Part shown: positions 3,258 to 14,396 of the stretch, in pieces
Layout of the letters: the number at the start of each line of letters is the position of its first letter
How positions within the stretch are numbered: position 1 is the first letter of the stretch
Source of the DNA: a virus
DNA length: 26,547 nucleotides
Virus record (IMG/VR): IMGVR_UViG_3300041955_000190
Span: 1-26,547 of that record
Reading direction: 5' to 3' (one strand)
Notes under the pieces: model-generated
Databases searched by the model: none
Told to the model about the DNA's origin: nothing
What the model saw: the letters and a program-made list of their open reading frames with translations, nothing else
Position numbers and translations under genes: made by a program

Positions 3258-3556
3258 TGGCACTCATTCTGCATTGCGACGGTTGTCACGCTCAGGACGG
3301 TAGTCTCGACGGTAACAAACAGCTTCCGCCTCAGGGAGCACCCGTGGCTACGAATCAGGCCCCACCCCGCATCAAGGTGTGGCGAAATGTTCAGGTTTAC
3401 GGCAAGACATACGATCTTTGCAACCGCTGTGTTGGCAAGATCAACGCGGTTTTGCAGCTACCCAGCGATGCCCCTTTGGACGGCCCGAAGGCCCCCAAGC
3501 TTGTGACGCAGGACAGGCTCGAAGGCATCGACCCAGAGATTTCCGGGCGCTGCTGA
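3257..3556 (+). CDS. Small protein with two CxxC motifs, likely zinc ribbon (99 aa)
   Basis: I take ATG 3257, which overlaps the upstream stop as TAATG, rather than the longer GTG-initiated frame inside the previous gene. C7-x2-C10 and C55-x2-C58 can form a four-Cys zinc site, split by a Pro/Gln-rich linker. It is the last gene of this small-gene operon; an AT-rich promoter region follows. Function unknown. Confidence 0.65.
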   Translation: MALILHCDGCHAQDGSLDGNKQLPPQGAPVATNQAPPRIKVWRNVQVYGKTYDLCNRCVGKINAVLQLPSDAPLDGPKAPKLVTQDRLEGIDPEISGRC

Positions 3557-3596
3557 AAATAATTTTTGCTTTTCCTAGCGAAAATTCCGACTTTCA

Positions 3597-3605
3597 TGGT
3601 AGTAT
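3597..3605 (+). promoter_or_regulatory. Extended -10 promoter TGGTAGTAT
   Basis: TG-G-TAGTAT fits the extended -10 form (TGnTAnnnT) and sits in an AT-rich stretch after the upstream operon (AAAATAATTTTTGC). It is close to the elements at 6646 and 8010. The predicted transcript start near 3612 would lead into the tiny ORF at 3636 and the tRNA-Tyr region. No good -35 box is seen. Confidence 0.45.
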
Positions 3606-3635
3606 GTAGTAGGTGAGGAATCACCGAAGGACATT

Positions 3636-3713
3636 ATGACCCGCGTAACCCTATCACTGTCGCTGTTGTATACCCTGCTTAGCGGGGTTGGCGGCGGTGT
3701 GTTCGAGGGGTAA
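3636..3713 (+). CDS. Tiny ORF (25 aa), possible leader peptide
   Basis: ATG at 3636 follows AAGGA with proper spacing and encodes a hydrophobic 25-residue peptide starting MTRVTLSLSLLYTLLSG. Its DNA resembles another tiny ORF at 12297: both begin ATTATGAnCCG, both contain ATCACT followed by TCG, and both end near a GC-rich arm containing CGGGG. Both stand before tRNA genes. It is followed by an intrinsic terminator and then tRNA-Tyr, so a leader or attenuator role is possible. Confidence 0.35.
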   Translation: MTRVTLSLSLLYTLLSGVGGGVFEG

Positions 3714-3739
3714 CGCTATTCAAACCCGAGAACGACCGA

Positions 3740-3768
3740 GCCGCCCAAAAGGGCGGCTTTATTGTTTT
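3740..3768 (+). terminator. Rho-independent terminator
   Basis: Perfect 7-bp stem GCCGCCC / GGGCGGC around an AAAA loop, followed by TTTATTGTTTT. It ends the short transcript from the 3597 promoter, just before tRNA-Tyr. Confidence 0.8.
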
Positions 3769-3778
3769 GCGGTGAAAT

Positions 3779-3863
3779 GTATGGGTGGGTGAGTGGCTAA
3801 AACCAGCGGTCTGTAAAACCGCCGCCCTCAGGGGCTACGCAGGTTCGAATCCTGCCCCATGCA
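3779..3863 (+). tRNA. tRNA-Tyr(GTA)
   Basis: Class II cloverleaf. Acceptor GTATGGG / CCCATGC (one G-U), anticodon arm GCGGT-CTGTAAA-ACCGC with anticodon GTA and normal U33, a long variable arm (CCCT...GGGG) and T arm GCAGG-TTCGAAT-CCTGC. Discriminator A. The 3' CCA is not encoded, unlike most tRNAs downstream. It lies upstream of a tyrosyl-tRNA synthetase gene. Confidence 0.93.
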
Positions 3864-3880
3864 CTTCCGTGACTTTCCGA

Positions 3881-3891
3881 GTATTAAGTAG
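3881..3891 (+). promoter_or_regulatory. Candidate promoter motif GTATTAAGTAG
   Basis: Identical 11-mer to the one at 324, 17 bases before the second GIY-YIG start. The preceding bases GACTTTC are also shared with the first copy (both have GACTTTC 5-6 bases upstream). Confidence 0.4.
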
Positions 3892-3908
3892 AGTGTTCGG
3901 GAAGGTTC

Positions 3909-4547
3909 ATGATGCAATACACTGTTTATAAAACGGTGAATTCGATCAACGGCAAGTTCTACATTGGGGTTCATAAGACCGAGAACCCCGACGATGACTA
4001 CCTCGGTTCTGGGAAACTCATCAAACGAGCCGTAGCGAAATACGGGGAACAGAGCTTCCAGAAAGAAGTTCTAGCGGTCTTTGAAACCCCGAATGATGCG
4101 TTCGAACTTGAGAAGAAGCTCGTGGCGGAAGTTCTCGGTACCCCGCTGTGCTACAACCTGAAAAATGGCGGCGAGGGCGGATTCGACTGGATAAATGGGC
4201 ATGGGTTGGCTGACCACGTAAAAGCCGCAAGAGCTACACATAAAGCACATGCTCCTGACTTTTACCGACGTATCTGCTTAAAGGCAGCGGCACAAATCAG
4301 GGCGCACGGGTTTTCCCCCGCTGCACGGGAAAAGATTGTGACGACCGTCCGTAAGACTTGGACGGGAAGAAAACACAGCGAGGGTACAAAACAGAAAATG
4401 GCCGTAGCGGGAAGAAAAAGAGTGGGTTCAAATAATTCACAGTTCGGGACCTATTGGGTCACAAAAGATGGGATGAACAAAAAGGTATCCACCGTTCAAT
4501 TTCCACAATTTTTGGAACTGGGTTGGCGACGGGGGAGAAAAGTATAA
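3909..4547 (+). CDS. GIY-YIG homing endonuclease (free-standing)
   Basis: 212 residues; ATG 3909 or 3912 can start it, after GGGAAGG. The N-terminus has YTVYKTVNSINGKFYIGVHKT (GIY and YIG strands), then DDYLGSGKLIKRAVAKYG (catalytic Arg and helix), an acidic ELEKKLV segment and YNLKNGGEGG. The C-terminus has TGRKHSEGTKQKMAVAGRKR, a NUMOD3-like basic module, and NSQFGTYWVTKDGMNKKV, the typical tail of this class. It is inserted between tRNA-Tyr and a second tRNA reading GTA, so tRNA genes may be its homing targets; this is inferred. Confidence 0.92.
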   Translation: MMQYTVYKTVNSINGKFYIGVHKTENPDDDYLGSGKLIKRAVAKYGEQSFQKEVLAVFETPNDAFELEKKLVAEVLGTPLCYNLKNGGEGGFDWINGHGLADHVKAARATHKAHAPDFYRRICLKAAAQIRAHGFSPAAREKIVTTVRKTWTGRKHSEGTKQKMAVAGRKRVGSNNSQFGTYWVTKDGMNKKVSTVQFPQFLELGWRRGRKV

Positions 4548-4550
4548 AAT

Positions 4551-4646
4551 GCACGTCTGGCCGATGCGGTAAGGCAGCGGGCCGTAACCCCGTCTTCCTC
4601 CACAGTGAGGGACTCGATGTAGGTTCGATTCCTACGGCGTGCACCA
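4551..4646 (+). tRNA. Class II tRNA with anticodon loop reading GTA and C33 (Tyr-like, atypical)
   Basis: Acceptor GCACGTC / GGCGTGC pairs fully (one U-G), discriminator A, CCA encoded. D arm GCC...GGC, T arm GTAGG-TTCGATT-CCTAC, long variable arm with CCTC...GAGG. The anticodon arm GCGGG / CCCGT encloses CCGTAAC, so positions 34-36 read GTA but position 33 is C, not the nearly universal U. Isotype Tyr is therefore provisional. Only 16 bases separate its CCA from the synthetase start at 4663. Confidence 0.7.
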
Positions 4647-4662
4647 AGATTGTGAGAAGCGT

Positions 4663-5814
4663 ATGATGGTAGTGCAAACAAAACTGACGGACAGAGCGCT
4701 AGAGATCATTCGCAGTGGCACCGTAGAGATCACGCACGAAGCGGAGTTGGGGGCACTCTTGCAAGAGAACCGACCGCTGACGGTGAAATGTGGGTTTGAC
4801 CCCACCGCGCCGGACATGCACCTTGGTCATGCGGTGCTGTTGCTAAAGTTGCGGCAGTTCCAAGACCTCGGTCACAAGGTGGTTTTTCTGGTTGGAGATT
4901 TAACCGCTACGATTGGCGATCCAACAGGACGGAACGCGCAGCGTCCGCCGATTAGTCGGGTGAAGATTGCGGAGAATGCCGCCAGTTTCAAGAAACAGTG
5001 TTTCACGATTCTGGACTCGACGAAAACAGAGATCGTGTACAACTCGGAGTTGTGGAGTCCGTCAATAGAAGACTTGCTGAAGTTGATGGCTACCACGACA
5101 GTGAGCCAGATGTTGGAACGCGATGATTTCAAAAAGCGTTTTGACGCGGAACAGCCGATCCACTTGCATGAGTTGATGTACCCGCTCCTGCAAGCTATGG
5201 ACTCGGTGAAACTGACCGCTGATGTGGAATTGGGCGGCACGGATCAGAAGCTCAATTTGCTCATGGGCAGGACGCTTCAACGGCACTTTGGAAAGAAGCC
5301 GCAAGTTTGCGTCACCATGCCGATCATCAATGGTCTGGATGGTGTGAACAAGATGTCAAAGTCGCTGGGAAATCATGTCGGCTTGACCGAAGCACCATCT
5401 TCGCAGTTTGCAAAGTTGATGTCCGTGTCGGATGAAATGATGGTGCAGTTCCGACAAGCGCTGTCATTGCCTGATCCTACGGAAGAACATCCAAAGGAAC
5501 AGAAGAAGGAAATGGCACACGCGATAGTGGAGATGCTCCACGGATGCATCGAAGCGGACCGGGCATTCGTTGATTGGGAACTTCAGTTCGAGCTAAAGCA
5601 GGAACCAGAGATGGAGACTGTGACGGTTCCGCGAGATCGACTGGATAGAGTCATTGTCTCGGCTGGGTTGGCGGCATCGAACTCCGATGCGAACCGCATG
5701 ATTAAGTCTGGTGCGGTATCGGTGAACGGCGCGAAGGCAGTGGACAACAAGTTTGAGCTACCAGAATGTTTTGTACTGAAGCTGGGAAGAAACTGGAAGC
5801 GTGTTAGGTTTTAG
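4663..5814 (+). CDS. tyrS: Tyrosyl-tRNA synthetase
   Basis: 383 residues from ATG 4663, chosen because GAGAAG precedes it; an earlier in-frame ATG at 4639 lies inside the tRNA. It charges tRNA-Tyr with tyrosine in the cytoplasm. Class I signatures are present: GFDPTAPDMHLGH (HIGH box HLGH, residues 53-56), GDLTATIGDPTGR, the PLLQAMDSVKLTADVELGGTDQ tyrosine-pocket segment, and KMSKS at 230-234. The C-terminal part (from about residue 325) is an S4-type RNA-binding domain (DRVIVSAGLAASNSDANRMIKSGAVSVNG). The length is normal and all motifs are intact, so it is probably active. It most resembles the TyrZ-like bacterial subtype. It is packed between a class II tRNA reading GTA and the Leu tRNAs, consistent with co-transcription. 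Confidence 0.96.
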   Translation: MMVVQTKLTDRALEIIRSGTVEITHEAELGALLQENRPLTVKCGFDPTAPDMHLGHAVLLLKLRQFQDLGHKVVFLVGDLTATIGDPTGRNAQRPPISRVKIAENAASFKKQCFTILDSTKTEIVYNSELWSPSIEDLLKLMATTTVSQMLERDDFKKRFDAEQPIHLHELMYPLLQAMDSVKLTADVELGGTDQKLNLLMGRTLQRHFGKKPQVCVTMPIINGLDGVNKMSKSLGNHVGLTEAPSSQFAKLMSVSDEMMVQFRQALSLPDPTEEHPKEQKKEMAHAIVEMLHGCIEADRAFVDWELQFELKQEPEMETVTVPRDRLDRVIVSAGLAASNSDANRMIKSGAVSVNGAKAVDNKFELPECFVLKLGRNWKRVRF

Positions 5815-5817
5815 CTT

Positions 5818-5895
5818 GTGCAGGTGAAGGGAACTGGCATACCTTACAGGTCGAGAGCCTGTAGCTTGTGGGTTCGAAGCCCACTCTGCACACCA
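5818..5895 (+). tRNA. Atypical tRNA, loop TCGAGAG (anticodon position reads GAG, C33)
   Basis: Acceptor GTGCAGG / TCTGCAC (one G-U), T arm GTGGG-TTCGAAG-CCCAC, discriminator A and encoded CCA are all good. The D loop GAACTGGCATA is Leu-like. The anticodon arm ACAGG-TCGAGAG-CCTGT puts GAG at 34-36 with C at 33. The variable loop is only 5 nt, whereas genuine tRNA-Leu is class II. It could be a Leu tRNA that lost its variable arm, or a non-translating tRNA. Confidence 0.65.
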
Positions 5896-5900
5896 AATGT

Positions 5901-5988
5901 GTGTCCGTGGCGTAACGGCAGCCGCGCAGCGTTGAGAACGCTGTCCCTAATGACGGGGGTGGAGGTTCGATTCCTCTCGGGCACACCA
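5901..5988 (+). tRNA. tRNA-Leu(GAG)
   Basis: Acceptor GTGTCCG / CGGGCAC, anticodon arm CAGCG-TTGAGAA-CGCTG with U33 and GAG, class II variable arm (TCCC...GGGG), T loop TTCGATT, discriminator A and encoded CCA. Confidence 0.88.
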
Positions 5989-6019
5989 AATTTAAGGGTT
6001 TCAGCATTTGCTGAAGTAC

Positions 6020-6103
6020 GCGGCTGTGGTGGAATGGTATACACGTATGCTTGAGGTGCATATCCCGCAAGGGATGGAGGTTCGAGTCCTCTCAGCCGCA
6101 CCA
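6020..6103 (+). tRNA. tRNA-Leu(GAG), second copy
   Basis: Acceptor GCGGCTG / CAGCCGC perfect, anticodon arm TATGC-TTGAGGT-GCATA with U33 and GAG, class II variable arm (TCCCGCAAGGGA), T arm GGAGG-TTCGAGT-CCTCT, CCA encoded. Same anticodon as the previous tRNA but a clearly different body. Confidence 0.9.
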
Positions 6104-6105
6104 AG

Positions 6106-6249
6106 TTTTGAGAGCACGAGTGGGGGAATTGGCATACCCGGAGCGGAAACGACTCCACGTCCCCGAATTGACGGGGGCTGCGGTGCAGCGTGGCGACGGC
6201 AGTGCGGATTCGAGTTCCGCCTCTGAAAGCTGCAACACCGCTCTCAAAA
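6106..6249 (+). ncRNA. tRNA-like structured RNA closed by a 10-bp stem (about 144 nt)
   Basis: Bounded by a perfect inverted repeat TTTTGAGAGC (6106-6115) / GCTCTCAAAA (6240-6249). Inside are a Leu-type D arm (GGGG-AATTGGCATA-CCC, 6123-6139), GGAG/CTCC (6140-6143/6153-6156), CCCCG/CGGGG (6161-6165/6172-6176), GCTGC/GCAGC (6177-6181/6185-6189) and a perfect T arm GCGGA-TTCGAGT-TCCGC (6204-6220). The normal acceptor is broken (only GAG/CTC pairs next to the T arm) and no CCA follows. It occupies a tRNA-sized slot between two Leu tRNAs. It may be a decayed, enlarged tRNA-Leu or a dedicated RNA. Confidence 0.5.
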
Positions 6250-6254
6250 GTTTT

Positions 6255-6340
6255 GCCGAAGTGGTGGAATTGGCAGACACACCCGACTCAGAATCGGACG
6301 GTTAACAGCCATAGGGGTTCGACTCCCCTCCTCGGCACCA
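6255..6340 (+). tRNA. tRNA-Leu(CAG)
   Basis: Acceptor GCCGAAG / CCTCGGC with one A-C mismatch, D loop GAATTGGCAGAC, anticodon arm CCGA-CTCAGAA-TCGG with CAG, class II variable arm (GGTTAACAGCC), T arm AGGGG-TTCGACT-CCCCT, CCA encoded. Confidence 0.88.
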
Positions 6341-6356
6341 ATATTTGCTAGAAAGG

Positions 6357-6431
6357 CTATATTTACTGTTCAGTGAACATTGCTTAAACGGTAAATATAG
6401 ACCGATTACAACGGTTTACGGGTTTAATCGG
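6357..6431 (+). repeat. Two adjacent hairpins (AT-rich inverted repeats)
   Basis: CTATATTTACTGTT (6357-6370) pairs with AACGGTAAATATAG (6387-6400), 14 positions with a single G-U; the loop contains the smaller GTTC/GAAC dyad. Directly after it CCGATTA (6402-6408) pairs with TAATCGG (6425-6431). The 103-bp gap between two Leu tRNAs is filled by these two stems. It may be a processing signal, an operator or a small RNA. Confidence 0.55.
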
Positions 6432-6443
6432 CACAAAGATTAT

Positions 6444-6529
6444 GCGGTTATGGCGGAATGGCAGACGCGCTAGGCTCAAACCCTAGTGGGGGCAACCCCG
6501 TGGAGGTTCGACTCCTCTTAGCCGCACCA
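6444..6529 (+). tRNA. tRNA-Leu(CAA)
   Basis: Acceptor GCGGTTA / TAGCCGC, anticodon arm CTAGG-CTCAAAC-CCTAG with CAA, class II variable arm (GGGGGCAACCCC), T arm GGAGG-TTCGACT-CCTCT, CCA encoded. Confidence 0.92.
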
Positions 6530-6534
6530 AGTTT

Positions 6535-6618
6535 GCACGAGTGGCGTAACGGCAGCCGCGCTCGCCTTAGGAGCGAGTCCCGAAAGGGGTGGAGGTTCGA
6601 TTCCTCTCTCGTGCACCA
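6535..6618 (+). tRNA. tRNA-Leu(TAG)
   Basis: Acceptor GCACGAG / CTCGTGC perfect, anticodon arm CTCGC-CTTAGGA-GCGAG with TAG, class II variable arm (TCCCGAAAGGGG), T arm GGAGG-TTCGATT-CCTCT, CCA encoded. Its acceptor 5' strand GCACGAG recurs in the aberrant RNA at 6106-6249, suggesting common origin. Confidence 0.92.
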
Positions 6619-6645
6619 AATTCCTAGCCAAATCCTTTCCCATCA

Positions 6646-6654
6646 TGGTAGAAT
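6646..6654 (+). promoter_or_regulatory. Extended -10 promoter TGGTAGAAT for a leaderless transcript
   Basis: TG-G-TAGAAT ends 6 bases before the ATG at 6661, so the expected transcript start (+1) falls on the A of the start codon. No SD is present. The same spacing recurs at 8010-8025. Confidence 0.5.
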
Positions 6655-6660
6655 AGCTAC

Positions 6661-6861
6661 ATGTATCCACCCGTCCGCCATGCCCACTGCTGGAACATCC
6701 CCGCTACTGCGGATTGTCCCGTGGACCTGTGCATAATCCAAGACGAGCGTGGGCTGATCTCTCTTGACAACACGGCTCAGGGCTGGCACCCGATCAATAA
6801 CCCGGAACTTCTTCGCTGGACAATGTTCAAAATCTGGTTGGACAAGGAACTAGACAGATGA
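6661..6861 (+). CDS. Small unknown protein (66 aa), probably leaderless
   Basis: Begins MYPPVRHAHCWNIP, contains two Cys near CPVDLCIIQDERG, and ends with an amphipathic helix (LLRWTMFKIWLDKELDR). No SD precedes the ATG; a promoter-like element at 6646 would start transcription at the initiation codon. The stop overlaps the next start (ATGA), so the two genes form an operon inside the tRNA array. No family recognised. Confidence 0.65.
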   Translation: MYPPVRHAHCWNIPATADCPVDLCIIQDERGLISLDNTAQGWHPINNPELLRWTMFKIWLDKELDR

Positions 6862-7187
6862 AACTCTCAAGACTCGCAGTAGACCGTGACGGCAACCTCG
6901 CCGCCATCGTAGTGACTAACGTGATCGACGAAGAGATCGATCTTCTCGTGCGCCCGCTGACGACCGAGGAACTCCGAAAGGTGGTCGAAACCTATAACGC
7001 CGTCGCCGATGCCGCCGAAGGTTCAAACCATCTTCCGTATCAGATGACGTTTCAACTTCTCAGGGAGACGGACATCGCCGAAGTATCCGTACAACACACC
7101 GCTGCGAAACTCTTTGGGGTCGATTTTGTTCCCTGCGGATTAGTTTGGTTTCCGGTTCGTGGCGAAAAAGACACGATCCATAAATAG
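6858..7187 (+). CDS. Unknown protein (109 aa)
   Basis: ATGA overlap with the upstream gene. The product has a beta-hairpin-like start (MKLSRLAVDRDGNLAAIVV), an acidic middle and a long helix (TTEELRKVVETYNAVADAAEG), then a C-terminal beta part ending VRGEKDTIHK. The last 13 codons and the bases after the stop are copied (46-nt repeat) at 11462-11507. Codon use looks like real coding sequence. No recognised family. Confidence 0.7.
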   Translation: MKLSRLAVDRDGNLAAIVVTNVIDEEIDLLVRPLTTEELRKVVETYNAVADAAEGSNHLPYQMTFQLLRETDIAEVSVQHTAAKLFGVDFVPCGLVWFPVRGEKDTIHK

Positions 7188-7194
7188 AGACGCT
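7149..7194 (+). repeat. 46-nt direct repeat, copy A (copy B 11462-11507)
   Basis: The two copies are aligned without net gap; the last 26 positions differ at one base (AGACACGATCCA-n-AAATAGAGACGCT). The repeat spans the last codons and TAG stop of the 109-aa gene and seven bases beyond. In copy B a TAG falls at the same place but no matching gene body precedes it. The AAATAGAGACGC part also resembles the candidate promoter motif. Confidence 0.65.
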
Positions 7195-7413
7195 ATGCCC
7201 ACCGCATGGCAGTAGGTGTTACGAGCACCTTGTGCGGATCGGCTAGACTCAACGGTATGTGACCGCATCAGTAAGTGTGGTTATCCGGCATCCGCGAGGA
7301 CCGGGAGAAGAGTCATGCTGGAGTGGAGAATCGGGAATCTCCAGCCGACCGGAAAATTGCAAGACGTTCTTGGGCGCACGGGGTCGGGGGTTCAAATCCC
7401 TCATCGCCGACCA
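7195..7413 (+). ncRNA. Structured gene-free stretch ending in a tRNA-like T arm and CCA
   Basis: No protein gene is seen. Helices include AGGTG-TTACGAG-CACCT (7214-7230, an anticodon-arm-like hairpin), GCTGGAG/CTCCAGC (7317-7323/7339-7345) and a clear T arm GGGGG-TTCAAAT-CCCTC (7386-7402), followed by ATCGCCG, A and CCA (7411-7413). I cannot find a 5' acceptor strand pairing well with ATCGCCG within normal tRNA length (TCGGCTA at 7239 pairs with TCGCCGA with one mismatch but is about 175 nt away). It is an interrupted tRNA, a tRNA remnant, or a larger RNA with a tRNA-like 3' end. Confidence 0.35.
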
Positions 7414-7424
7414 ATACCGAGGAA

Positions 7425-7484
7425 GGCGTATGGATGCTGGGGCGGTGTCCGGACACGTGAGTTCAATGCTCACTTCATACGCCA
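7425..7484 (+). ncRNA. Minimal tRNA-like hairpin ending GCCA
   Basis: GGCGTATGGA (7425-7434) pairs over 10 bp with TTCATACGCC (7474-7483). Read as a tRNA it gives a 7-bp acceptor GTATGGA / TTCATAC, discriminator G, CCA, and a perfect T arm GTGAG-TTCAATG-CTCAC stacked directly on the acceptor. Only 22 nt (7435-7456) remain where D and anticodon arms should be, and these contain the 12-nt palindrome GTGTCCGGACAC. Total 57 nt from 7428. It cannot be a decoding tRNA; it resembles a minihelix or tmRNA-type tRNA-like domain. Confidence 0.5.
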
Positions 7485-7660
7485 TCGGATTTTTCGAGTA
7501 AGCTCGTTTCGACGGGCGCGTGCGATGGCAGTGACCAAGTAGGGTCGTCCGCAAGGACGGTGGGAGCAGTACCGAACGGAAGCTGGGCACCATCGCCTCG
7601 ACGCCGCTGGATTCGTCCCCGGCAGGGGATGATTGGGTGCAAGACTAGCGGCAAGAGTTT
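7481..7660 (+). ncRNA. Multi-helix structured RNA region
   Basis: CGATGG at 7523-7528 can pair with either CCATCG at 7482-7487 or CCATCG at 7590-7595 (mutually exclusive). Further stems: CGTCC-GCAA-GGACG (7546-7559, GNRA loop), TCCCC-GGCA-GGGGA (7616-7629) nested inside GCCGCTGG/CTAGCGGC (7603-7610/7645-7652). No ORF of credible composition covers it. The GC-rich helices, short loops and tRNA-adjacent position suggest a folded RNA of unknown type. Confidence 0.4.
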
Positions 7661-7682
7661 CGGTGTTTGAAGGAGACAACAA

Positions 7683-7919
7683 ATGTTGATTTTTGAACCA
7701 GTAAAGTGCGGGCATTGCGAGAGTAAGGATTTCAAGATGGTTGAAAAGGGCATTGCAGAGTGCGCCAACGGACATCGGGGAGAAGTGACGGGGATGATTA
7801 CAATCGCCTCCACTACGATTTCACGTACCTTCAACCGCGAACAGGTCGAGGAAAACATGAAGCGGAACGATGATAAACTCCGCTTTGCGTACTCGTACCA
7901 CGAGCCCGTCGAGTTATAG
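7683..7919 (+). CDS. Small zinc-ribbon-like protein (78 aa)
   Basis: ATG preceded by GAAGGAG with 7-base spacing. C9-x2-C12 and C27-x3-H31 (ECANGHRGEV) look like a four-ligand zinc ribbon, followed by a Thr/Ser-rich strand and an amphipathic acidic C-terminus. It lies between structured RNA and tRNA-Pro. Function unknown. Confidence 0.7.
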   Translation: MLIFEPVKCGHCESKDFKMVEKGIAECANGHRGEVTGMITIASTTISRTFNREQVEENMKRNDDKLRFAYSYHEPVEL

Positions 7920-7925
7920 CGATTT

Positions 7926-8002
7926 CGGGGAGTAGCTCAGCTTGGTAGAGCACACCGTTCGGGACGGTGGGGCCGCGAGTTCAAATCTCGCCTCCCCGAC
8001 CA
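7926..8002 (+). tRNA. tRNA-Pro(CGG)
   Basis: Acceptor CGGGGAG / CTCCCCG perfect, D arm GCTC...GAGC, anticodon arm CACCG-TTCGGGA-CGGTG with CGG, T arm GCGAG-TTCAAAT-CTCGC, discriminator A, CCA encoded. A classic class I cloverleaf. Confidence 0.94.
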
Positions 8003-8009
8003 AGATTTG

Positions 8010-8018
8010 TGGTAGAAT
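8010..8018 (+). promoter_or_regulatory. Extended -10 promoter TGGTAGAAT for a leaderless transcript
   Basis: TG-G-TAGAAT begins 7 bases after tRNA-Pro and ends 6 bases before ATG 8025, placing +1 on the start codon, exactly as at 6646-6661. A GAGG sits only one base before the ATG, too close to act as a normal SD. Confidence 0.5.
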
Positions 8019-8024
8019 TGAGGT

Positions 8025-8537
8025 ATGAGATCGAAGCAAAAACGTGTCTGGACGGGTATGGGTGTAGATGACAGCATCCGTGGGCATGAGAGTGTTCACA
8101 AGGGAACAGCGACAGAAGCTCACGTGACGGCGGATTTGATAGACCTTAGGGCGATAGTTTTACGACCGTTCGACTCTAACCCAGACTATGACCTCGTGAT
8201 TCAAGTCGGTGTCGGCCATCCGTGGAAAAGATTCTTGTCGATTCAGTGCAAATCGGGTCGGTTGCATGATGACGGGACGTGGGAGTTCAAAACCGCTGAT
8301 AATAAAGGACGAACCTATAGGGGGAGAGTGGATTTGATTGCGGCTTATACTGCGGATCGAACGCTTCTGATTCGACCCGAAGAGGTCGGCAAGGTGGTTT
8401 ATATCAGGTCTGCCCCGACGAAAAACAAGCAGCGGAAGAAAATCAGGATGGTGGAAGACTACGACGCGCAGCTTGTGCTCATGCGGTTAGTTGAACAGTG
8501 GCGAGCGGAGTATGAAACCCAGCACCCAGAGGTTTGA
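8025..8537 (+). CDS. PD-(D/E)XK endonuclease, I-Ssp6803I-like homing type
   Basis: 170 residues. The motifs appear in the expected order: K26-G-x3-E31 at the start of a helix (HKGTATEAHVTADL), NPDYDLVIQV with catalytic D56, and SIQCKSGR with Q74-x-K76, followed by a beta strand and VDLIAAYTADRTLLIRPEEV. This matches the PDDEXK family that includes the cyanobacterial tRNA-fMet intron endonuclease. It is free-standing here, just after tRNA-Pro, so it could home into a tRNA gene, or act as a small nuclease of another kind. No intron is visible in the adjacent tRNA. Confidence 0.75.
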   Translation: MRSKQKRVWTGMGVDDSIRGHESVHKGTATEAHVTADLIDLRAIVLRPFDSNPDYDLVIQVGVGHPWKRFLSIQCKSGRLHDDGTWEFKTADNKGRTYRGRVDLIAAYTADRTLLIRPEEVGKVVYIRSAPTKNKQRKKIRMVEDYDAQLVLMRLVEQWRAEYETQHPEV

Positions 8538-8606
8538 ATGCGATTTTTGAGAAAACTCACGGCTCTTTTTCGGCGGGATCAGTATCGTCCTATAGGGACT
8601 TGGTAA
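8538..8606 (+). CDS. Tiny basic ORF (22 aa), doubtful
   Basis: ATG directly follows the nuclease stop (TGAATG). The peptide begins MRFLRKLTALFRRDQ and is strongly basic. It overlaps a dyad that may be an operator, so it may be coincidental. Confidence 0.25.
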   Translation: MRFLRKLTALFRRDQYRPIGTW

Positions 8607-8623
8607 ATACCAAACCCTATAGA
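8590..8623 (+). promoter_or_regulatory. Nested dyad: probable operator or hairpin before the 116-aa gene
   Basis: CTATAGGG (8591-8597, with flanks) pairs with CCCTATAG (8616-8623), and the perfect palindrome GGTAAATACC (8602-8611) lies in the centre. The right arm runs into TATAGATAGGGGAC, whose AGGGGA can act as SD for ATG 8635. Symmetry suggests a repressor site or an RNA hairpin that controls the SD. Confidence 0.45.
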
Positions 8624-8634
8624 TAGGGGACCGC

Positions 8635-8985
8635 ATGGCAAAGATTCGTGTCGATGTGGATGGTCACGAGAAGGTTGACGTAAAGACCTTTGACCCATGG
8701 AAGACCGCTACGGAGAAGGGCGAGAGGATTTCGTTCATCGACGTGTGGCTGGCTGAGAGCCCCGTGACCTTGGAAGAACAAGCTGACGCCGAACGCGAGG
8801 TTGAGCATCTCACCAAGCTGGCAGCGGGCAGCAACCTATACCAAGGGTTCGAAACAGAGCTTGCCGAGATCAAGAGCAAGCCGTATGATGAAGTTGTGAG
8901 AGAGCAGGGGCAGATCGAGCTTTCAGAAGACGACACCCCAGTAGCGAAGCCGAAGAAGGCAACCGCGTTCTTTCCGAATTTTTAA
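8635..8985 (+). CDS. Unknown acidic protein (116 aa)
   Basis: Begins MAKIRVDVDGHEKVDVKTFDPW (beta strands), then a long acidic helix (TLEEQADAEREVEHLTKLA) and an acidic C-terminal tail ending KPKKATAFFPNF. Start supported by AGGGGA. It is separated from tRNA(CAT) by a short hairpin. No family recognised. Confidence 0.7.
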   Translation: MAKIRVDVDGHEKVDVKTFDPWKTATEKGERISFIDVWLAESPVTLEEQADAEREVEHLTKLAAGSNLYQGFETELAEIKSKPYDEVVREQGQIELSEDDTPVAKPKKATAFFPNF

Positions 8986-9016
8986 GATTCACCCACCACG
9001 TGTGGGAGGAACTGGG

Positions 9017-9033
9017 GAGTCGGTCACCGATTC
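9017..9033 (+). terminator. Weak hairpin, possible terminator
   Basis: GAGTCGG / CCGATTC around TCA, 7 bp with one G-U, followed by a TC-rich run (TCTTCCTTG). It separates the 116-aa gene from the next tRNA. Confidence 0.35.
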
Positions 9034-9043
9034 TCTTCCTTGC

Positions 9044-9120
9044 GCCTGCGTAGCTCAATTGGCTAGAGCAGCGGTCTCATAAGCCGAAGATGTGGGGTTC
9101 AAATCCCCTCGCAGGCACCA
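9044..9120 (+). tRNA. tRNA with anticodon CAT (elongator Met or Ile2)
   Basis: Acceptor GCCTGCG / CGCAGGC perfect, D arm GCTC...GAGC, anticodon arm CGGT-CTCATAA-GCCG, T arm TGGGG-TTCAAAT-CCCCT, CCA encoded. CAT could be Met or lysidine-modified Ile; the sequence alone does not decide. It is not an initiator, because positions 1 and 72 pair. Confidence 0.9.
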
Positions 9121-9427
9121 AATTTGTGCAGAACAGACGCACCTGTTCTTTGAAGGCCGTTCGGTAAGGCCCGAATGGTTATGATGTGCTGGCGGCTGAA
9201 ACGTCGCCGAAGTTTTCCCGCCCTTCGTTGAAAAGTAGGCTTGCCTTGGACCCGAGGTTATGGGGGCGTCCGACGTGATACGAATAGCGTCGGTTTTGTT
9301 CACCAAGTTTTAGGGAAGTCGGGAGTCTGCGGACCCTTCCGAGGCTATAGAGCCAAAAGCATCTGGCTATTAACTGCCCAAACACAGTATCGGATACCCG
9401 ACAATTCAAACACAGGAGGACGAGCAG
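9121..9427 (+). ncRNA. Gene-free stretch with several hairpins; possible structured RNA
   Basis: No credible ORF. Stems: GAACAG/CTGTTC (9131-9136/9143-9148), CCGTTCGG/CCGAATGG (9157-9164/9171-9178, 8 bp), GGCGGC/GTCGCC (9191-9196/9203-9208), CCGACG/CGTCGG (9270-9275/9288-9293) followed by TTTTGTT, then GGCT/AGCC (9352-9363). The fourth stem with its T-run may terminate an RNA starting just after the tRNA. The last 60 bases lead to a strong SD and a 12-codon ORF. Confidence 0.35.
9270..9300 (+). terminator. Possible intrinsic terminator
   Basis: 6-bp perfect stem CCGACG / CGTCGG with a 12-nt loop, followed by TTTTGTT. Confidence 0.45.
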
Positions 9428-9466
9428 ATGGCTACTAACCCTAGCAAGACCGCACATACCGCATAA
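9428..9466 (+). CDS. Tiny ORF (12 aa) with strong SD
   Basis: ATG is preceded by AGGAGGACGAGCAG (AGGAGG with 7-8 base spacing), one of the best SD sites in the window, yet the ORF encodes only MATNPSKTAHTA before TAA. It ends 27 bases before the start of the 99-aa gene. It could be a translated leader that sets expression of the following gene. Confidence 0.35.
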   Translation: MATNPSKTAHTA

Positions 9467-9493
9467 GGTGTGAGCGGTCGGGGAGTGAAAGCC

Positions 9494-9793
9494 ATGTCTC
9501 ATCCTACGTCCCGTGCCGAACGTCGGCACCAGCGTGATCGTGTAATTGCCCGTCGTAAATTCATCGTGACCCGCGTTTGGTCACGGGGTTCGTATAGCAC
9601 CAGCAGCGAGTCTACCAAGAAGTGGCTCGAAGAAATGCAATGGGGCGTCTATGCGAAATTCAACCTCAACTGCGGCTGCACACAGTGTCACGGGGCAAAG
9701 TATTTTTCCTGTGCCCACAAACGCCGCAAGGCCCTTCGTCATGCCGAGTCGCAAGCAGATTTTCGGCGAAAGGATAAAGTCGAAGGTAGATAA
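9494..9793 (+). CDS. Small basic Cys/His protein (99 aa), widespread phage type
   Basis: I choose ATG 9494 (GGGAG nine bases upstream) over the in-frame GTG 9470. The N-terminus is very basic (RAERRHQRDRVIARRKF), the middle has several Trp, and the C-terminal half has C60, C62, C65, H66, C73 and H75, which may bind zinc. Many phages, including those with large tRNA arrays, encode short proteins of this layout (basic N-terminus, then a CxCxxC patch and Arg-rich tail). No function is known. Confidence 0.75.
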   Translation: MSHPTSRAERRHQRDRVIARRKFIVTRVWSRGSYSTSSESTKKWLEEMQWGVYAKFNLNCGCTQCHGAKYFSCAHKRRKALRHAESQADFRRKDKVEGR

Positions 9794-10075
9794 TCTTTCA
9801 AAACTAGCGTATTACTGTAATGTGGGGTGCTGCTGGCGAGTGCAGGCGGCTTAATTTGGTGTCTGTTGCGTCCATGCCCTGATGTACCTCGGCACCCGCT
9901 CCGCAGCGGGACGCTTGACAAGCAGTGGGGGAGTTGATTCTTTGCGGATGTGTTCGGCTCCCCGACATTCAGCCGACGTGGTGCCCGACTCTGTTTGGTC
10001 GTCGTTTCCTCGGCCCCGAAAGTGGGCTCGTTGGGGGAAGGTGCACTTGCCGAGGTTTTTCTTTCTGGAGGCCGT
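9794..10075 (+). ncRNA. Gene-free stretch with strong hairpins upstream of a small gene
   Basis: CCCGCT-CCGC-AGCGGG (9895-9910), GGGGAG/CTCCCC (9928-9933/9958-9963), and CCTCGG/CCGAGG (10008-10013/10050-10055) with an inner GCCC/GGGC. The last stem is followed directly by TTTTTCTTT, and then by the SD of the gene at 10076. This order (terminator-like stem, T-run, SD) is what an attenuator or riboregulator leader looks like, but no known riboswitch class is recognised. Confidence 0.35.
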
Positions 10076-10270
10076 ATGGCTATTGCGCTGGACAAGAAGT
10101 TGTGTTTGAATGGGAATGCGACCGACCACATCTGGATTATGGTCGATGGCGATGAGCCCAACGTGATTGGTATTCGCATGGACTGCGGAGATTCTGGAAC
10201 GGTCTATGTGACTCGCGATCAGGCGAAAGAGTTAGCAGAACAGTTGCAGGACGTTTTGCAGAAGATTTAG
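10076..10270 (+). CDS. Small unknown protein (64 aa)
   Basis: ATG 10076 follows TGGAGG with 5-base spacing. The longer upstream frame has no SD. The product MAIALDKKLCLNGNATDHIW..., ending with helix DQAKELAEQLQDVLQKI, looks like a four-strand sheet plus one helix. Good codon use. No family recognised. Confidence 0.7.
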   Translation: MAIALDKKLCLNGNATDHIWIMVDGDEPNVIGIRMDCGDSGTVYVTRDQAKELAEQLQDVLQKI

Positions 10271-10744
10271 CCGAGTGGCCCGTGATTCAACTGGTTCAGT
10301 GGTCTCAGTAAGTGGGTGAATAGCCTGTCGGGGAGAAATAAATAATCTCCGAGCGAAGTTCAGACCGCCGCCCCCAGTATAAAAAACGCAGCAGCGGGGG
10401 GTGGATACCGTAAGGTCCACTGGAGGCACCCACGCTCAGGTACTCGACCACCTGTGGGTAGCCGTATCGGGATTCGAGCATAACCGAAAGGTGCTCGGCT
10501 AAAGTTTGGCAGTGAGCGGCTTTGCAAAAGAGGCCGTCAACCTGCCCGTCAGCCTTTGTCAAGCCGGGAGAAGTTCTCTTTAGAGCAGACGTTAAAACCG
10601 AAACGAGAACGTTACAATGTTAGTGGGGGCATTCATCCATTGCTCCAGTAGGGAAGTCGGCCCGAGTTCGGGATGCATCGCAGTCACCCGAGGGGGTTAG
10701 CCCCGTAGAAGGTGGATGTGGGCTCGGGCCGCAGTACAATTTGA
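10271..10744 (+). ncRNA. Large structured RNA candidate upstream of tRNA-fMet
   Basis: 474 bases without a credible gene but dense with stems: GGAGA/TCTCC (10332-10350 area), CCGCCCCC/GGGGGGTGG (10368-10375/10396-10404), ACC-GTAA-GGT (10407-10416), CGAGC-ATA-ACC-GAAA-GGT-GCTCG (10475-10497) and a long-range pair GGCCCGAG/CTCGGGCC (10659-10666/10723-10730) enclosing GGGG/CCCC. GNRA tetraloops (GTAA, GAAA) on GC-rich stems are typical of large tertiary-folded RNAs. Phage RNAs of the GOLLD and ROOL classes occur next to tRNAs, so this is a candidate for one of those or a new class. Confidence 0.45.
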
Positions 10745-10821
10745 CGCGGGGTGGAGCAGTCTGGTAGCTCGGAAGGCTCATAACCTTCAGGTCGAGGGTT
10801 CAAATCCCTCCCCCGCAACCA
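10745..10821 (+). tRNA. Initiator tRNA-fMet(CAT)
   Basis: Starts CGCGGGGTGGAGCAG, as bacterial initiator tRNA does. C1 faces A72 (3' strand CCCCGCA), the hallmark mismatch. D arm with AGCAGTCTGGTAGCTCG, anticodon loop CTCATAA, T arm GAGGG-TTCAAAT-CCCTC, CCA encoded. The anticodon stem is GAAGG/CCTTC, not the usual one with three consecutive G-C pairs. Confidence 0.92.
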
Positions 10822-11043
10822 TCTCTAAGATGACAGGCAAGAGTAGCCGTTGACCTAGCTGGCGAGTGTGAACGGTAATTTCGACCTGTCGGTTGCGCCA
10901 GCGTAATTTGTACAAATGCTGCTGTGAGGCATGTCGGGGCGGACTATTCACAGGCTTGTAGCAGACCCCGACACCAAGTTTCCCCAGTGAGGCGCACAGC
11001 GCCTTGCAAGTGGAGTCGCCTAGCGTCTCCCGGGGATCGAGTT

Positions 11044-11122
11044 GCGGGCGAGTGGATACGGATACATAAACCATACAAGCCTCATAAGCTTGTGATAGTC
11101 AGTTCGACTCTGACGCTCCGCA
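11044..11122 (+). pseudogene. Degraded tRNA, anticodon CAT
   Basis: Good anticodon arm CAAGC-CTCATAA-GCTTG and T arm GTCAG-TTCGACT-CTGAC, but the acceptor GCGGGCG / GCTCCGC has two mismatches next to the T arm, the D region is poorly paired, and the 3' end is A-CCC, not A-CCA. Probably a decayed or divergent tRNA. Confidence 0.6.
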
Positions 11123-11580
11123 CCCAAGTTGCCGCATAATAGCGGCTGTGATTAGCAGGTCCTCATTGGACTTCGACTTTGTGCCTGAGTGGGGTCGTTG
11201 TTCGGGGAACCGCCATAACCTAAAACGGTGCGGCGTGGAACCTGTGAAATCGCTTCTCAGGCCGCTTTTTGAAAGCTTGTGGCGGCGTTCTGTGCTAACT
11301 ATGCGAAAGCTGGTAGAGTACACAACGTGAGCAATCGTTCTTCAAGGGAGATGTTCCAAAAGAACGTGTGCGGATGGGTCATGATGCGACCTCCTATCCT
11401 TTGTTGCTTGTCCGCGCAGTGGGGCCGTGATTTCCGGCTGCTATCCCCCGCCACAACCGTTTTTCCAGTCGTGGCGGAAATAGACACGATCCAGAAATAG
11501 AGACGCTCAAGCGTTTGGAGAGAGTTCCCGCTGCGACGGGATTCCAATCGTGGAGACCCAAGCGGTCAGCACAGCCCACT
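11123..11580 (+). other. Gene-free stretch with scattered hairpins and a repeat copy
   Basis: No convincing gene. A stem GTTCTT/AAGAAC (about 11337-11367) and the 46-nt repeat copy B (11462-11507) are the only clear structures. A 73-codon frame ending at 11500 shares only its last codons with the gene ending at 7187, so it looks like a fragment next to a copied gene end. TGGTAGAGT at 11310 resembles an extended -10. Confidence 0.4.
11462..11507 (+). repeat. 46-nt direct repeat, copy B
   Basis: Matches 7149-7194, best over the last 26 bases (one difference). The TAG stop in the repeat closes a short frame without a matching body. Confidence 0.65.
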
Positions 11581-11581
11581 G

Positions 11582-11785
11582 TTGGCGATTCAGGCTACGC
11601 ACTTTGGTCAGAAGATCAATAGCCTTGCACTGCTGACGAACAAGGAATCGCTGGCTCGGCTGGGTGAGATGTTCACCGCCGCATCGAAGGAAGACTACTC
11701 GGGTAACGAGTATGTGTACGCCGCAAAAGTTCAAGAGCCCGTGCTTACAGGCGATGCCGAAAGCTGCGGACAAGAAGAGAATTAG
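11582..11785 (+). CDS. Possible small protein or gene remnant (67 aa from TTG)
   Basis: The translation (KINSLALLTNKESLARLGEMFTAASKEDYSGNEYVYAAKV...) and its third-position GC bias look like real protein, but there is no ATG and no SD. The frame is open back to 11501. Either a TTG-started gene or the 3' part of a broken gene lying after repeat copy B. Confidence 0.35.
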   Translation: MAIQATHFGQKINSLALLTNKESLARLGEMFTAASKEDYSGNEYVYAAKVQEPVLTGDAESCGQEEN

Positions 11786-11975
11786 GGCGCTCGATAAGCT
11801 GTGCCTCGGGTGGATGTCCCGCGATCCTGCGTAGCCAGTCGCAGTATAGCCCTACAGTTCTCGGACTTAAACCGAGTGGTGGAGGGTCAGGCGGGTAACC
11901 GCTATGTCCCCCGTTCTCGGACGTAAACCGAGTGGTCCCGACCAACGGCGGAGCGAAAGTCCCGCCGCCGCTTTG
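11786..11975 (+). ncRNA. Structured RNA with tandem hairpins
   Basis: Contains CTGCG/CGCAG (about 11828-11845), two 24-nt repeats (11857-11880 and 11913-11936, one base different), each a CTCGG/CCGAG hairpin with 7-nt loop, a GCGG-GTAA-CCGC hairpin between them, and CGGCGG...CCGCCG capped by GAAA (11945-11966). It runs up to the SD of the next gene. Compact helices and GNRA loops argue for a folded RNA or 5' leader. Confidence 0.45.
11857..11936 (+). repeat. Two 24-nt hairpin repeats, 56 bases apart
   Basis: 23 of 24 bases match; each starts GTTCTCGGAC, continues to CCGAGTGGT, and folds into a 5-bp stem with loop AC(T/G)TAAA. Confidence 0.75.
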
Positions 11976-11988
11976 AAAGAGAGAAACA

Positions 11989-12240
11989 ATGGGTTGTGAT
12001 ACTTGCATTTTTCAGAACGACGTTCGTAATCACGCAGATCAGAAGGGCAGCAAGTTGGAACCGTGCAGCATGGAGTACGGGTGCAATCCGTACTTCAAAG
12101 AGGGTGCCAACAGTAGTGTTTTGATTTCCGAATCCTATTGTGGGACCTGCAACGCATTACAGAAAGATTGTCAGTGCGCCGAAGGCGTGCGGCAGATTCG
12201 GAACCGCAAAGTTCAAGTAGCAAGGAACCGTGGACGGTAA
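11989..12240 (+). CDS. Cys-rich small protein (83 aa), likely zinc-binding
   Basis: Start ATG after GAGAGAAACA. Eight cysteines: C3, C6, C26, C32, C51, C54, C61 and C63, enough for two zinc sites, with a basic C-terminus (RNRKVQVARNRGR). It follows structured RNA and is closed by an intrinsic terminator. Function unknown. Confidence 0.75.
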   Translation: MGCDTCIFQNDVRNHADQKGSKLEPCSMEYGCNPYFKEGANSSVLISESYCGTCNALQKDCQCAEGVRQIRNRKVQVARNRGR

Positions 12241-12250
12241 CATCGACCGC

Positions 12251-12285
12251 CCCAGCTAGGAGGTCCACCCAACGCTGGGATTTTT
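12251..12285 (+). terminator. Rho-independent terminator
   Basis: CCCAGC / GCTGGG stem (12251-12256/12274-12279) followed by ATTTTT, downstream of the Cys-rich gene. Confidence 0.65.
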
Positions 12286-12296
12286 AAGAGCAGATT

Positions 12297-12350
12297 ATGA
12301 TCCGTATTCACATCACTCTCGACTTGTTTATCAGCCCCTCTCGGGGCTAA
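12297..12350 (+). CDS. Tiny ORF (17 aa), twin of the ORF at 3636
   Basis: Encodes MIRIHITLDLFISPSRG. The DNA aligns with 3633-3690 (ATTATGAnCCG start, ATCACT-TCG in the middle, CGGGG arm near the end). Its end forms a perfect hairpin AGCCCC-TCTC-GGGGCT containing the stop. tRNA-Phe follows 19 bases later. Possible leader peptide of the tRNA unit. Confidence 0.3.
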   Translation: MIRIHITLDLFISPSRG

Positions 12351-12369
12351 GTAGTCGTGTGTTCAATGT

Positions 12370-12446
12370 GGGTCGGTAGCTCAGCCCGGTAGAGCGCAGC
12401 CCTGAAGAGGCTGGCGTCGGGGGTTCAAATCCCTCCCTTCCCACCA
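12370..12446 (+). tRNA. tRNA-Phe(GAA)
   Basis: D arm GCTC...GAGC, anticodon arm CAGCC-CTGAAGA-GGCTG with GAA, T arm GGGGG-TTCAAAT-CCCTC, CCA encoded. Acceptor GGGTCGG / CCTTCCC has two mismatches at positions 4-5, which may lower stability. Confidence 0.85.
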
Positions 12447-12467
12447 AATCTCTATATACAATCGAAT

Positions 12468-12543
12468 GGGAAGTGAGCAAGTGCGGTCATTGCGATGGCT
12501 TGAAACCCCATAGAATCGGGTTCGACTCCCGGACTTCCCACCA
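12468..12543 (+). tRNA. tRNA-Phe(GAA)-like, second copy
   Basis: Acceptor GGGAAGT / ACTTCCC perfect, T arm TCGGG-TTCGACT-CCCGG, CCA encoded. The anticodon stem ATGG/CCAT carries a C-C mismatch before loop TTGAAAC (U33, GAA). The D stem is only 3 bp. Reads Phe, but with a weak anticodon arm. Confidence 0.7.
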
Positions 12544-12545
12544 TT

Positions 12546-14130: not shown

Positions 14131-14396
14131 TGCTAAAACCACGCTGCATCTACTGCGGTAAGATTTTCGCCGACAAAGAAAAGTACGACACCATCACCAA
14201 GCCCGTAGCGGCTACAGGTGCCAACGGTGGGACGAAGATCATCCAGAAGCCCGTTGGATTCAACTGCATCAAGCGGTGTTTCAAAGGTCAAGCGAGAGCG
14301 ATGTTCGAGCTATACGCCGACGTTGAACTGAAGGACGGCAAGCTGGTCGAAGTCAAGCGTCCCGGCAATGGCGGGCTAACGCTAAGGAAGTTCTAA
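14130..14396 (+). CDS. Small zinc-binding protein (88 aa)
   Basis: Starts in a TAATG overlap and ends in another with the polymerase gene. C6-x2-C9 and C46-x3-C50 can hold a zinc ion. The rest is basic and Gly-rich. Tight coupling between the primase-like gene and DNA polymerase suggests a replication accessory role, by position only. Confidence 0.7.
   Translation: MLKPRCIYCGKIFADKEKYDTITKPVAATGANGGTKIIQKPVGFNCIKRCFKGQARAMFELYADVELKDGKLVEVKRPGNGGLTLRKF

Follow-up and report, generated by a model that had tools for sequence, protein, structure and literature searches.

A tyrosyl-tRNA synthetase gene in a phage tRNA block with a candidate attenuation leader

The question of why phages carry transfer RNA (tRNA) genes, and whether they provide these tRNAs blindly or in response to need, was raised here by a 26,547-base fragment of a soil phage from IMG/VR (record IMGVR_UViG_3300041955_000190; the whole fragment is called the window), in which a single (forward) strand carries, from 3779 to 6618, two tRNA-Tyr(GTA) genes, a GIY-YIG homing endonuclease gene, a tyrosyl-tRNA synthetase (TyrRS) gene and six tRNA genes called Leu. 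The TyrRS is probably an accessory gene behind tRNA-Tyr in a Tyr/Leu operon under ribosome-mediated transcription attenuation. The parts, their order, the match between leader and block and the absence of the TyrRS in relatives were read from the sequences. The composition of the short leader reading frame names the downstream tRNAs, and this makes the question of supply directly testable.

The TyrRS gene and the leader ahead of its block

The TyrRS frame opened at 4639, and its first in-frame ATG (4663) was 16 nt past the second tRNA-Tyr gene. Its stop codon (TAG, 5812–5814) was 3 nt ahead of the next tRNA, and this close spacing on both sides suggested a common transcript. The product of 4663–5814 matched the NCBIfam tyrS profile at 313.7 bits (cut-off 113.8). 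The signatures HLGH, KMSKS and GGTDQ were all intact, 90 of the 102 columns that were near-invariant among 110 other TyrRS rows were kept, and a C-terminal S4 domain was present (Pfam S4, 28.8 bits, cut-off 22.8). Judged from its sequence, the gene encodes a complete bacterial-type TyrRS with an apparently intact catalytic site. A preliminary description of this DNA had already reported the complete synthetase, the 16-nt gap, the two tRNAs reading GTA and the nuclease between them. ARAGORN and Rfam confirmed both tRNA-Tyr genes (3779–3864, 55.6 bits; 4551–4646, 47.0 bits; gathering score 29), and the nuclease gene (3909–4547) matched PHROG 314 (E 3e-43), with only 22.7 bits to Pfam SegE, under the 25-bit cut-off. 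The distinction made there, of one class II and one classical tRNA, did not hold, as both tRNA-Tyr had the long variable arm of class II. This form is normal for bacterial tRNA-Tyr.

The unit had been delimited at 3779–5814. These limits left out the leader and terminator upstream (3553–3768), by which the unit is probably controlled, and the tRNA-Leu genes downstream (to 6618). The leader open reading frame (ORF), MTRVTLSLSLLYTLLSGVGGGVFEG, occupied 3636–3713 on the same strand and contained six Leu and one Tyr in the 24 residues after Met (7/24 Leu/Tyr, expected fraction 0.11, p 0.015); its frame matched the block best of the six frames. It was preceded by a conserved, promoter-like 5′ region (3553–3635; 93% identical to contig G005 over 88 nt) with an AGGA/AAGGA Shine-Dalgarno motif ahead of the leader ATG, and a version of this region recurred before the Pro block in relatives. 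The conservation of the region suggested that it holds a promoter. An intrinsic terminator (3738–3768), with a 9-bp stem (3738–3759) and a T-rich tail, followed 24 nt past the leader stop and 20 nt before the first tRNA. The same hairpin was found ahead of tRNA-Tyr in G003, G005 and G011, and a similar one 257 nt before tRNA-Tyr in G006 (G- and L-numbers are labels of the compared contigs or genomes and of loci or rows). The leader counterpart in G006 had equal length and layout and differed from that of the window by four synonymous and four non-synonymous codon changes. A possible antiterminator strand at 3684–3698 could pair with the terminator's 5′ arm in a duplex of −15.9 kcal/mol, at a z of only −0.87.

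Agreement between leaders and tRNA blocks in related phages

The DNA polymerase (14396–18034) and portal protein (19395–22034) of the window were 44.5 and 58% identical, over the aligned parts, to those of Tunturiibacter phage Tunturi_5 (PP885688.1), the closest among phage records, and the primase-polymerase-portal order was common to both. Several IMG/VR contigs were 92–93% identical in these two proteins. Tunturi_5 is a 308,711-bp jumbo phage of Acidobacteriota, and relatives of the window phage reached 463 kb. This indicated that the window is a piece of a jumbo phage related to Tunturi_5. Rfam tRNA matches numbered 39 in G003, 69 in G006, 64 in G011 and 38 in Tunturi_5, for which 43 tRNA genes have been reported; the available part of that report mentions neither leaders nor attenuation (PMC11924767). 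The tRNAs of the relatives were grouped in amino-acid blocks (Tyr-Leu, Pro-Met-Phe, Val-Ala-Gly-Asp-Cys-Glu, Ser-Leu, His-Arg-Asn-Lys-Gln and Ile-Thr-Gln), and those of Tunturi_5 were fused otherwise, into a Leu-Cys-Tyr-Ser block and two larger ones. Tunturi_5 belonged to the same clade and had the same leader and terminator layout, whereas no TyrRS was found in it by profile search.

Many blocks had the same organization, in the order of conserved 5′ region, short ORF, intrinsic terminator and first tRNA. The leader rule took terminators no more than 300 nt before a tRNA and the longest ORF whose stop lay 15–40 nt ahead of the hairpin. It found 20 terminators, 16 with a leader and four, near or inside blocks, without one; the distance from stop to terminator was 18–32 nt, and 20–25 nt in 13 of the 16. 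The leader peptides were rich in the amino acids of their own block: Leu and Tyr in the window, a run of SSLSSSSSS in the leader of the Ser block (MNRISSLSSSSSSFGGFGERVRWRGW), and Thr, Gln and Ile in that of the Ile-Thr-Gln block (MKQTLQTRTTTQQITITCVRVGVSGTQGE). The Tunturi_5 leaders were MKTLCLSSYCLSSSLSLSDGWDLRTGRDADMI before the Leu-Cys-Tyr-Ser block and MKQILKQLGHDFDIRGKRGVVVDTWDITIRGERKWSDVRDMRVLRERPV before the Trp-Asp-Met-Lys-Val-Arg-Glu-Ile-Gly block. Where Ser was added to the Tyr-Leu block (G265 and G278), the leader was rich in Ser, Leu and Tyr (MRHILLSSYLSSSSLLTGSEPMRGSVE; MKNLSSNSLSSLSYSSSLLSGLVLPDGWDG, 18/29 residues). This indicated that leader composition changes along with the tRNA content of the block. 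Pro-Met-Phe blocks of G003, G005, G006 and G011 likewise had a conserved leader rich in Pro, Met and Phe (in G006 MNLMRPFTMFRPCMPTMRRETIL, translated by eye).

When the 16 leaders were pooled in eight block classes, the true pairing was the single best of 40,320 permutations by both the log-odds and the fraction score, and the own block scored highest for seven of the eight classes. Single-leader p values ranged from 1e-6 to 0.12 and were below 0.05 in 14 of the 16 cases; the ORF frame fitted the block best of the six frames in 15. This permutation test was run after the leaders had been seen, with a mechanical rule and mechanical scores, and here as in the 5,040-permutation test below orthologous blocks were pooled into classes named by us.

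Two further sets were analyzed. The distant phage LR745208.1 (portal 41.9% identical over half the query) was read with a rule set after viewing the region, namely a TTGAC-type promoter and then the first ATG. Among its six leaders the true pairing was the best of 720 permutations and the own block came top in five; an extra short ORF, MNQHLHHHCY, was noticed by eye before the Tyr-Cys-His block and stood outside the permutation test. The leader rule was also frozen and applied to five unseen genomes, where it gave 12 leaders, eight with p < 0.05, and the observed value was reached by 3 of 5,040 permutations (log-odds) or 11 of 5,040 (fraction). To this extent these two tests are stronger than the first. 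Two controls had tRNAs not sorted by amino acid: the remote relative G282 gave one leader, unmatched, and the first 50 kb of XacN1 (28 tRNAs) gave one terminator and no leader.

Among the 43 other terminators of the clade loci, three were also preceded by a leader-like ORF; two of these ORFs were Thr/Gln/Ile-rich leaders, each set apart from its Ile-Thr-Gln block by an ORF inserted there. The five new genomes had leader-like ORFs at 27 of 272 other terminators, far from tRNAs; one of the 27, in G278, was Thr/Gln/Ile-rich, lay 378 nt before tRNA-Ile and was not counted. The geometry of ORF and terminator alone is thus not specific, and the specificity of the leaders rests in the composition match.

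Attenuation and the competing explanations

Ribosome-mediated attenuators govern the bacterial amino-acid operons trp, his, leu and ilv and the E. coli operon pheST. The phage blocks resembled these in that a short leader ORF rich in cognate codons is followed by an intrinsic terminator, behind which lie the genes under control, with a possible competing antiterminator. The pheST operon is a synthetase operon with such control (PMC1183508), and the TyrRS as a member of the phage operon is reminiscent of it. The phage blocks differ in that tRNAs would be regulated, with the synthetase as cargo, in that the carrier is a phage, and in having several block-matched leaders per genome.

We infer the steps of transcription, stalling, switching, processing and charging as follows. 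With charged tRNA-Tyr and tRNA-Leu plentiful, the ribosome would traverse the leader ORF, the terminator would form and the operon would be mostly off. A shortage of either charged tRNA, whether from high demand, starvation, inefficient charging or the destruction of host tRNA, would make the ribosome stall at Leu or Tyr codons; pairing of the leader with the terminator's 5′ arm would then let RNA polymerase continue into the tRNA-Tyr, TyrRS and tRNA-Leu genes. A ribosome near the leader stop would hinder the antiterminator stretch, and one held on earlier control codons would leave it free. Processing of the tRNAs would cut the TyrRS message free from its flanks, and the TyrRS would charge tRNA-Tyr, so that read-through on shortage would deliver replacement tRNAs together with the charging enzyme. 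As the regulated genes are tRNAs, such control would act on transcription or RNA stability and not on translation of those genes. It is suggested that the tRNAs are sorted by amino acid in these phages because the members of a block share a switch.

Predicted structures were partly consistent with this scheme. In all 16 leaders a stretch about 15–29 nt upstream of the end of the stop codon was complementary to the terminator's 5′ arm (−14 to −21 kcal/mol), and the antiterminator duplex had z ≤ −2 in 11 of them. An equilibrium model, crude in that it ignores folding kinetics, placed the ribosome at each codon; the terminator probability fell below 0.5 inside the leader and came back near the stop in 8 of the 16 leaders, or in 9 when a dip confined to the start codon was included.

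Several results weighed against attenuation. The equilibrium model showed no switch for the window leader, whose antiterminator z was the weakest of the 16 and which, at p 0.015 and with one Tyr codon, counted among the weaker composition matches; no sigma-70 consensus promoter was called at 3553–3635. The strict terminator rule had no matches in LR745208.1, and no terminator was found by rule at the Pro/Met/Phe leaders of G003, G005, G006 and G011. Four of the 12 frozen-rule leaders missed p < 0.05, and two were plainly unmatched (G272, Met/Phe 1/31; G282, 13/26 against an expected fraction of 0.53). At the level of codons, 76 of 96 informative codons were decodable by the block anticodons, against 75.5 expected from phage codon usage; the leader-block match is by amino acid, not by codon.

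With these points counted, we still favour attenuation as the likely explanation. If it is true, the reach of attenuation, known from biosynthetic and synthetase operons, includes the tRNA genes as well, phages gain a sensor for defences that target tRNA, and every leader serves as a natural sensor for its own group of charged tRNAs. A wider reading, which we hold to be somewhat short of evenly balanced, is that the system is an amino-acid-resolved response to tRNA damage, in which the disappearance of a single charged tRNA species, as when an anticodon nuclease defence attacks it, would induce only the matching tRNAs and any matching synthetase. The Tyr/Leu operon of the window would then be the most complete unit, with sensor, replacement tRNAs and charging enzyme on one transcript.

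The preliminary description had suggested a self-sufficient tyrosine-charging unit that could either charge an altered tRNA selectively or allow an escape from a host defence aimed at tRNA-Tyr. In the form in which the unit makes up for tRNA-Tyr that a host nuclease has destroyed, with the TyrRS charging a resistant tRNA, the escape is rather unlikely as the explanation of the locus; it is compatible with the attenuator and not an alternative to it, and the attenuator would sense exactly such a loss. A host nuclease is a possible cause of tRNA shortage by analogy with retron-Eco7, whose PtuAB depletes tRNA-Tyr and which T5-like phages escape with their own tRNA-Tyr; a phage tRNA-Tyr matters there once the host tRNA-Tyr is depleted, and may do so here. 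The T5-like system differs, according to the available part of the report, in that a strong promoter drives the tRNA, with neither synthetase nor attenuator (PMC11555353). The candidate for resistance is the second tRNA-Tyr, which had C33 where U33 is usual (loop CCGTAAC). Non-U33 loops were rare (20 of 243 clade tRNAs, mostly C33, including in the window this tRNA and the GAG tRNA at 5818), and the C33 loop was kept in the G011 homologue, so this base may matter. However, C33 also occurred in blocks without synthetases and in G011, which has no TyrRS, the other tRNA-Tyr of the window had a normal loop, and this analysis linked neither a defence gene nor a nuclease to this phage or its host. 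A C33 tRNA-Tyr and TyrRS forming an obligate pair was ruled out, since G011 (a 455.7-kb contig) had the C33 tRNA without TyrRS; the tRNA is therefore independent of the window enzyme.

Constitutive supply, with extra tRNA-Tyr and TyrRS serving phage codon demand and the leaders incidental or otherwise used, is improbable. Phage tRNAs are usually explained by codon compensation in the available parts of the literature (PMC11924767; eLife 2023), and the block tRNAs were diverse and mostly well formed. However, this account predicts neither block-matched leaders nor a terminator 20 nt before the first tRNA, and Tyr made up only 3.3% of the residues of five window phage proteins, with no sign of special demand.

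Little credence is also given to selfish cargo, whereby the TyrRS and GIY-YIG genes would ride along, without benefit to the phage, in a tRNA array into which homing endonucleases often insert. Corresponding blocks of relatives did hold homing-endonuclease-like ORFs, TyrRS occurred in no relative searched, and the first tRNA-Tyr, next to the GIY-YIG gene, had lost its encoded CCA, which the second has. Against this, the active site of the TyrRS was well conserved, and the gene stood beside its cognate tRNA, as did five of six synthetase-like PF00587 matches in relatives (below). A role of the TyrRS in splicing array introns, like that of CYT-18, the fungal mitochondrial TyrRS acting in RNA splicing, is hardly credible: a tRNA-Pro at about 7370–7414 was present as a 3′ half only, but no group I intron was found in 3500–13000 at E up to 5, the intron mode of ARAGORN gave only implausible joins across genes, and the TyrRS had an ordinary domain make-up with its S4 domain.

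The earlier statement that phages rarely carry synthetases holds in that they are uncommon; they have already been described. Huge phages that combine many tRNAs with synthetases, for which charging of the phage tRNAs has been proposed, resemble the window in this combination, and they differ in that neither attenuator control nor adjacency to cognate tRNAs is described in the available part of that report (Al-Shayeb et al., 2020, PMC7162821). Our literature searches on attenuation of phage tRNA genes found no such report. Attenuator, phage tRNA array and phage synthetase are each known; their combination, with one matched leader per block, was not found in the literature searched.

Origin of the TyrRS and other features of the blocks

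Family PF00579, to which TyrRS belongs, was not detected in related contigs (0/9 and 0/24), some of these 33 being fragments or possible re-samplings of one phage. Two viral contigs bearing TyrRS (G001 and G002) were found through the TyrRS itself and are outside the 0/9 count, as their clade membership was not established. The absence from all 33 suggested that the TyrRS is recent cargo. In G011 the two tRNA-Tyr genes were separated by 1 nt, with no GIY-YIG gene between them, and small ORFs occupied the place of the TyrRS between the second tRNA-Tyr and the homologous Leu-type tRNA. Together with the absence of TyrRS, this gene order suggested that the TyrRS and GIY-YIG genes are best read as insertions in this lineage.

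The best identity of the TyrRS was 51%, to an Acidobacteriaceae row. The preliminary description had proposed a phylogeny to see whether the enzyme groups with the local host, and trees of 112 and 49 rows (three duplicate loci dropped; the extreme branch L002 dropped from the second) placed the phage row next to Omnitrophota on a very long branch (2.1–2.2 changes per column), a position that long-branch attraction may explain. Grouping with Acidobacteriaceae was neither shown nor rejected (p-AU 0.217). Grouping with 17 of the 18 Acidobacteriota rows (L134, which lay elsewhere in the tree, was left out) or with Beta/Gammaproteobacteria was likewise not rejected (p 0.103 and 0.202). Enterobacteria jumbo phages GAP32, BF and CBB also encode a TyrRS, but it was only 28–30% identical, and the window enzyme is of another bacterial type.

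The linkage of tRNA and synthetase, stressed in the preliminary description, recurred in relatives. PF00587 matches were found in 2 of 7 and 3 of 17 clade sequences searched, six in total, of which only L163 and L164 were above the curated cut-off; five stood beside a cognate tRNA, and L163 (LR745208.1) was without a nearby tRNA. PF00133 (0/7) and PF00152 (0/19) were not found in the clade. A HisRS-like (histidyl-tRNA synthetase-like) protein of 204 aa in G006 (L164 1318–1932; PF13393 75 bits, cut-off 25) ended 6 nt before tRNA-His. It had class II motifs at half the usual size, and from its sequence it could be a natural minimal HisRS. A GlyRS-like (glycyl-tRNA synthetase-like) protein of 239 aa in the same genome (L165 1225–1944) started 10 nt past tRNA-Gly; its best NCBIfam match was glycine--tRNA ligase at 38 bits, far under the 312-bit cut-off. 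GlyRS-like ORFs directly after tRNA-Gly were also present in G262, G267 and G281. L312, L313 and L314 were so named from a weak PF00587 match and their site after tRNA-Gly, L312 and L314 also from likeness by eye to L165, and L313 and L314 possibly come from a single phage that was sampled twice. Small class II proteins of this kind (about 235 aa) were L165 1225–1944, L312 1048–1899 and L314 1192–1899; the GlyRS-like cases may share one origin. No anticodon-binding domain was detected in the two small synthetase-like proteins searched. The window TyrRS fits this pattern of synthetase-like genes neighbouring cognate tRNAs, and the layout of the Tyr block with TyrRS is not due to chance.

Both tRNA-Tyr of the window had G1-C72 and A73, and the first had a T2:G71 wobble. 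The TyrRS gene was followed by a tRNA with a GAG anticodon (5818–5895), which had a short variable loop, was under the Rfam cut-off and had a homologue in G011. The tRNA-Leu genes called by ARAGORN and Rfam then followed, reading GAG (5901–5988 and 6020–6103), CAG (6255–6340), CAA (6444–6529) and TAG (6535–6618). An unannotated element of about 143 nt inside the Leu block (6107–6249) had tRNA-like ends, a strong predicted fold (−64.7 kcal/mol for 6102–6254) and 94% identity to G006 (L105 11142–11294), although the polymerases share only 59%; it may be an expanded tRNA or a structured RNA of a new kind. Another, short tRNA-like element (7425–7485), closed by a 7-bp stem and containing a hairpin like a T-arm, was conserved in G005, G006 and G011; in G011 its closing stem was altered on both sides. 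The half tRNA-Pro(TGG) at 7370–7414 had no adjacent 5′ half, and G005 had the intact form.

Also present in the window were a second GIY-YIG/NUMOD3 homing endonuclease gene (346–1041) and an endonuclease VII-type ORF (22468–22947). A tRNA-Met (10745–10821) had a C1:A72 mismatch, the hallmark of an initiator tRNA, and shared about 88% identity with the tRNA-Met of Caulobacter jumbo phages. In G003, G006 and G011 (L140, L144 and L147), tRNAs with a CTA anticodon, labelled Pyl by ARAGORN, lay upstream of the Ile-Thr-Gln blocks and are possible amber suppressors; the stop codon of the window TyrRS gene is itself TAG.

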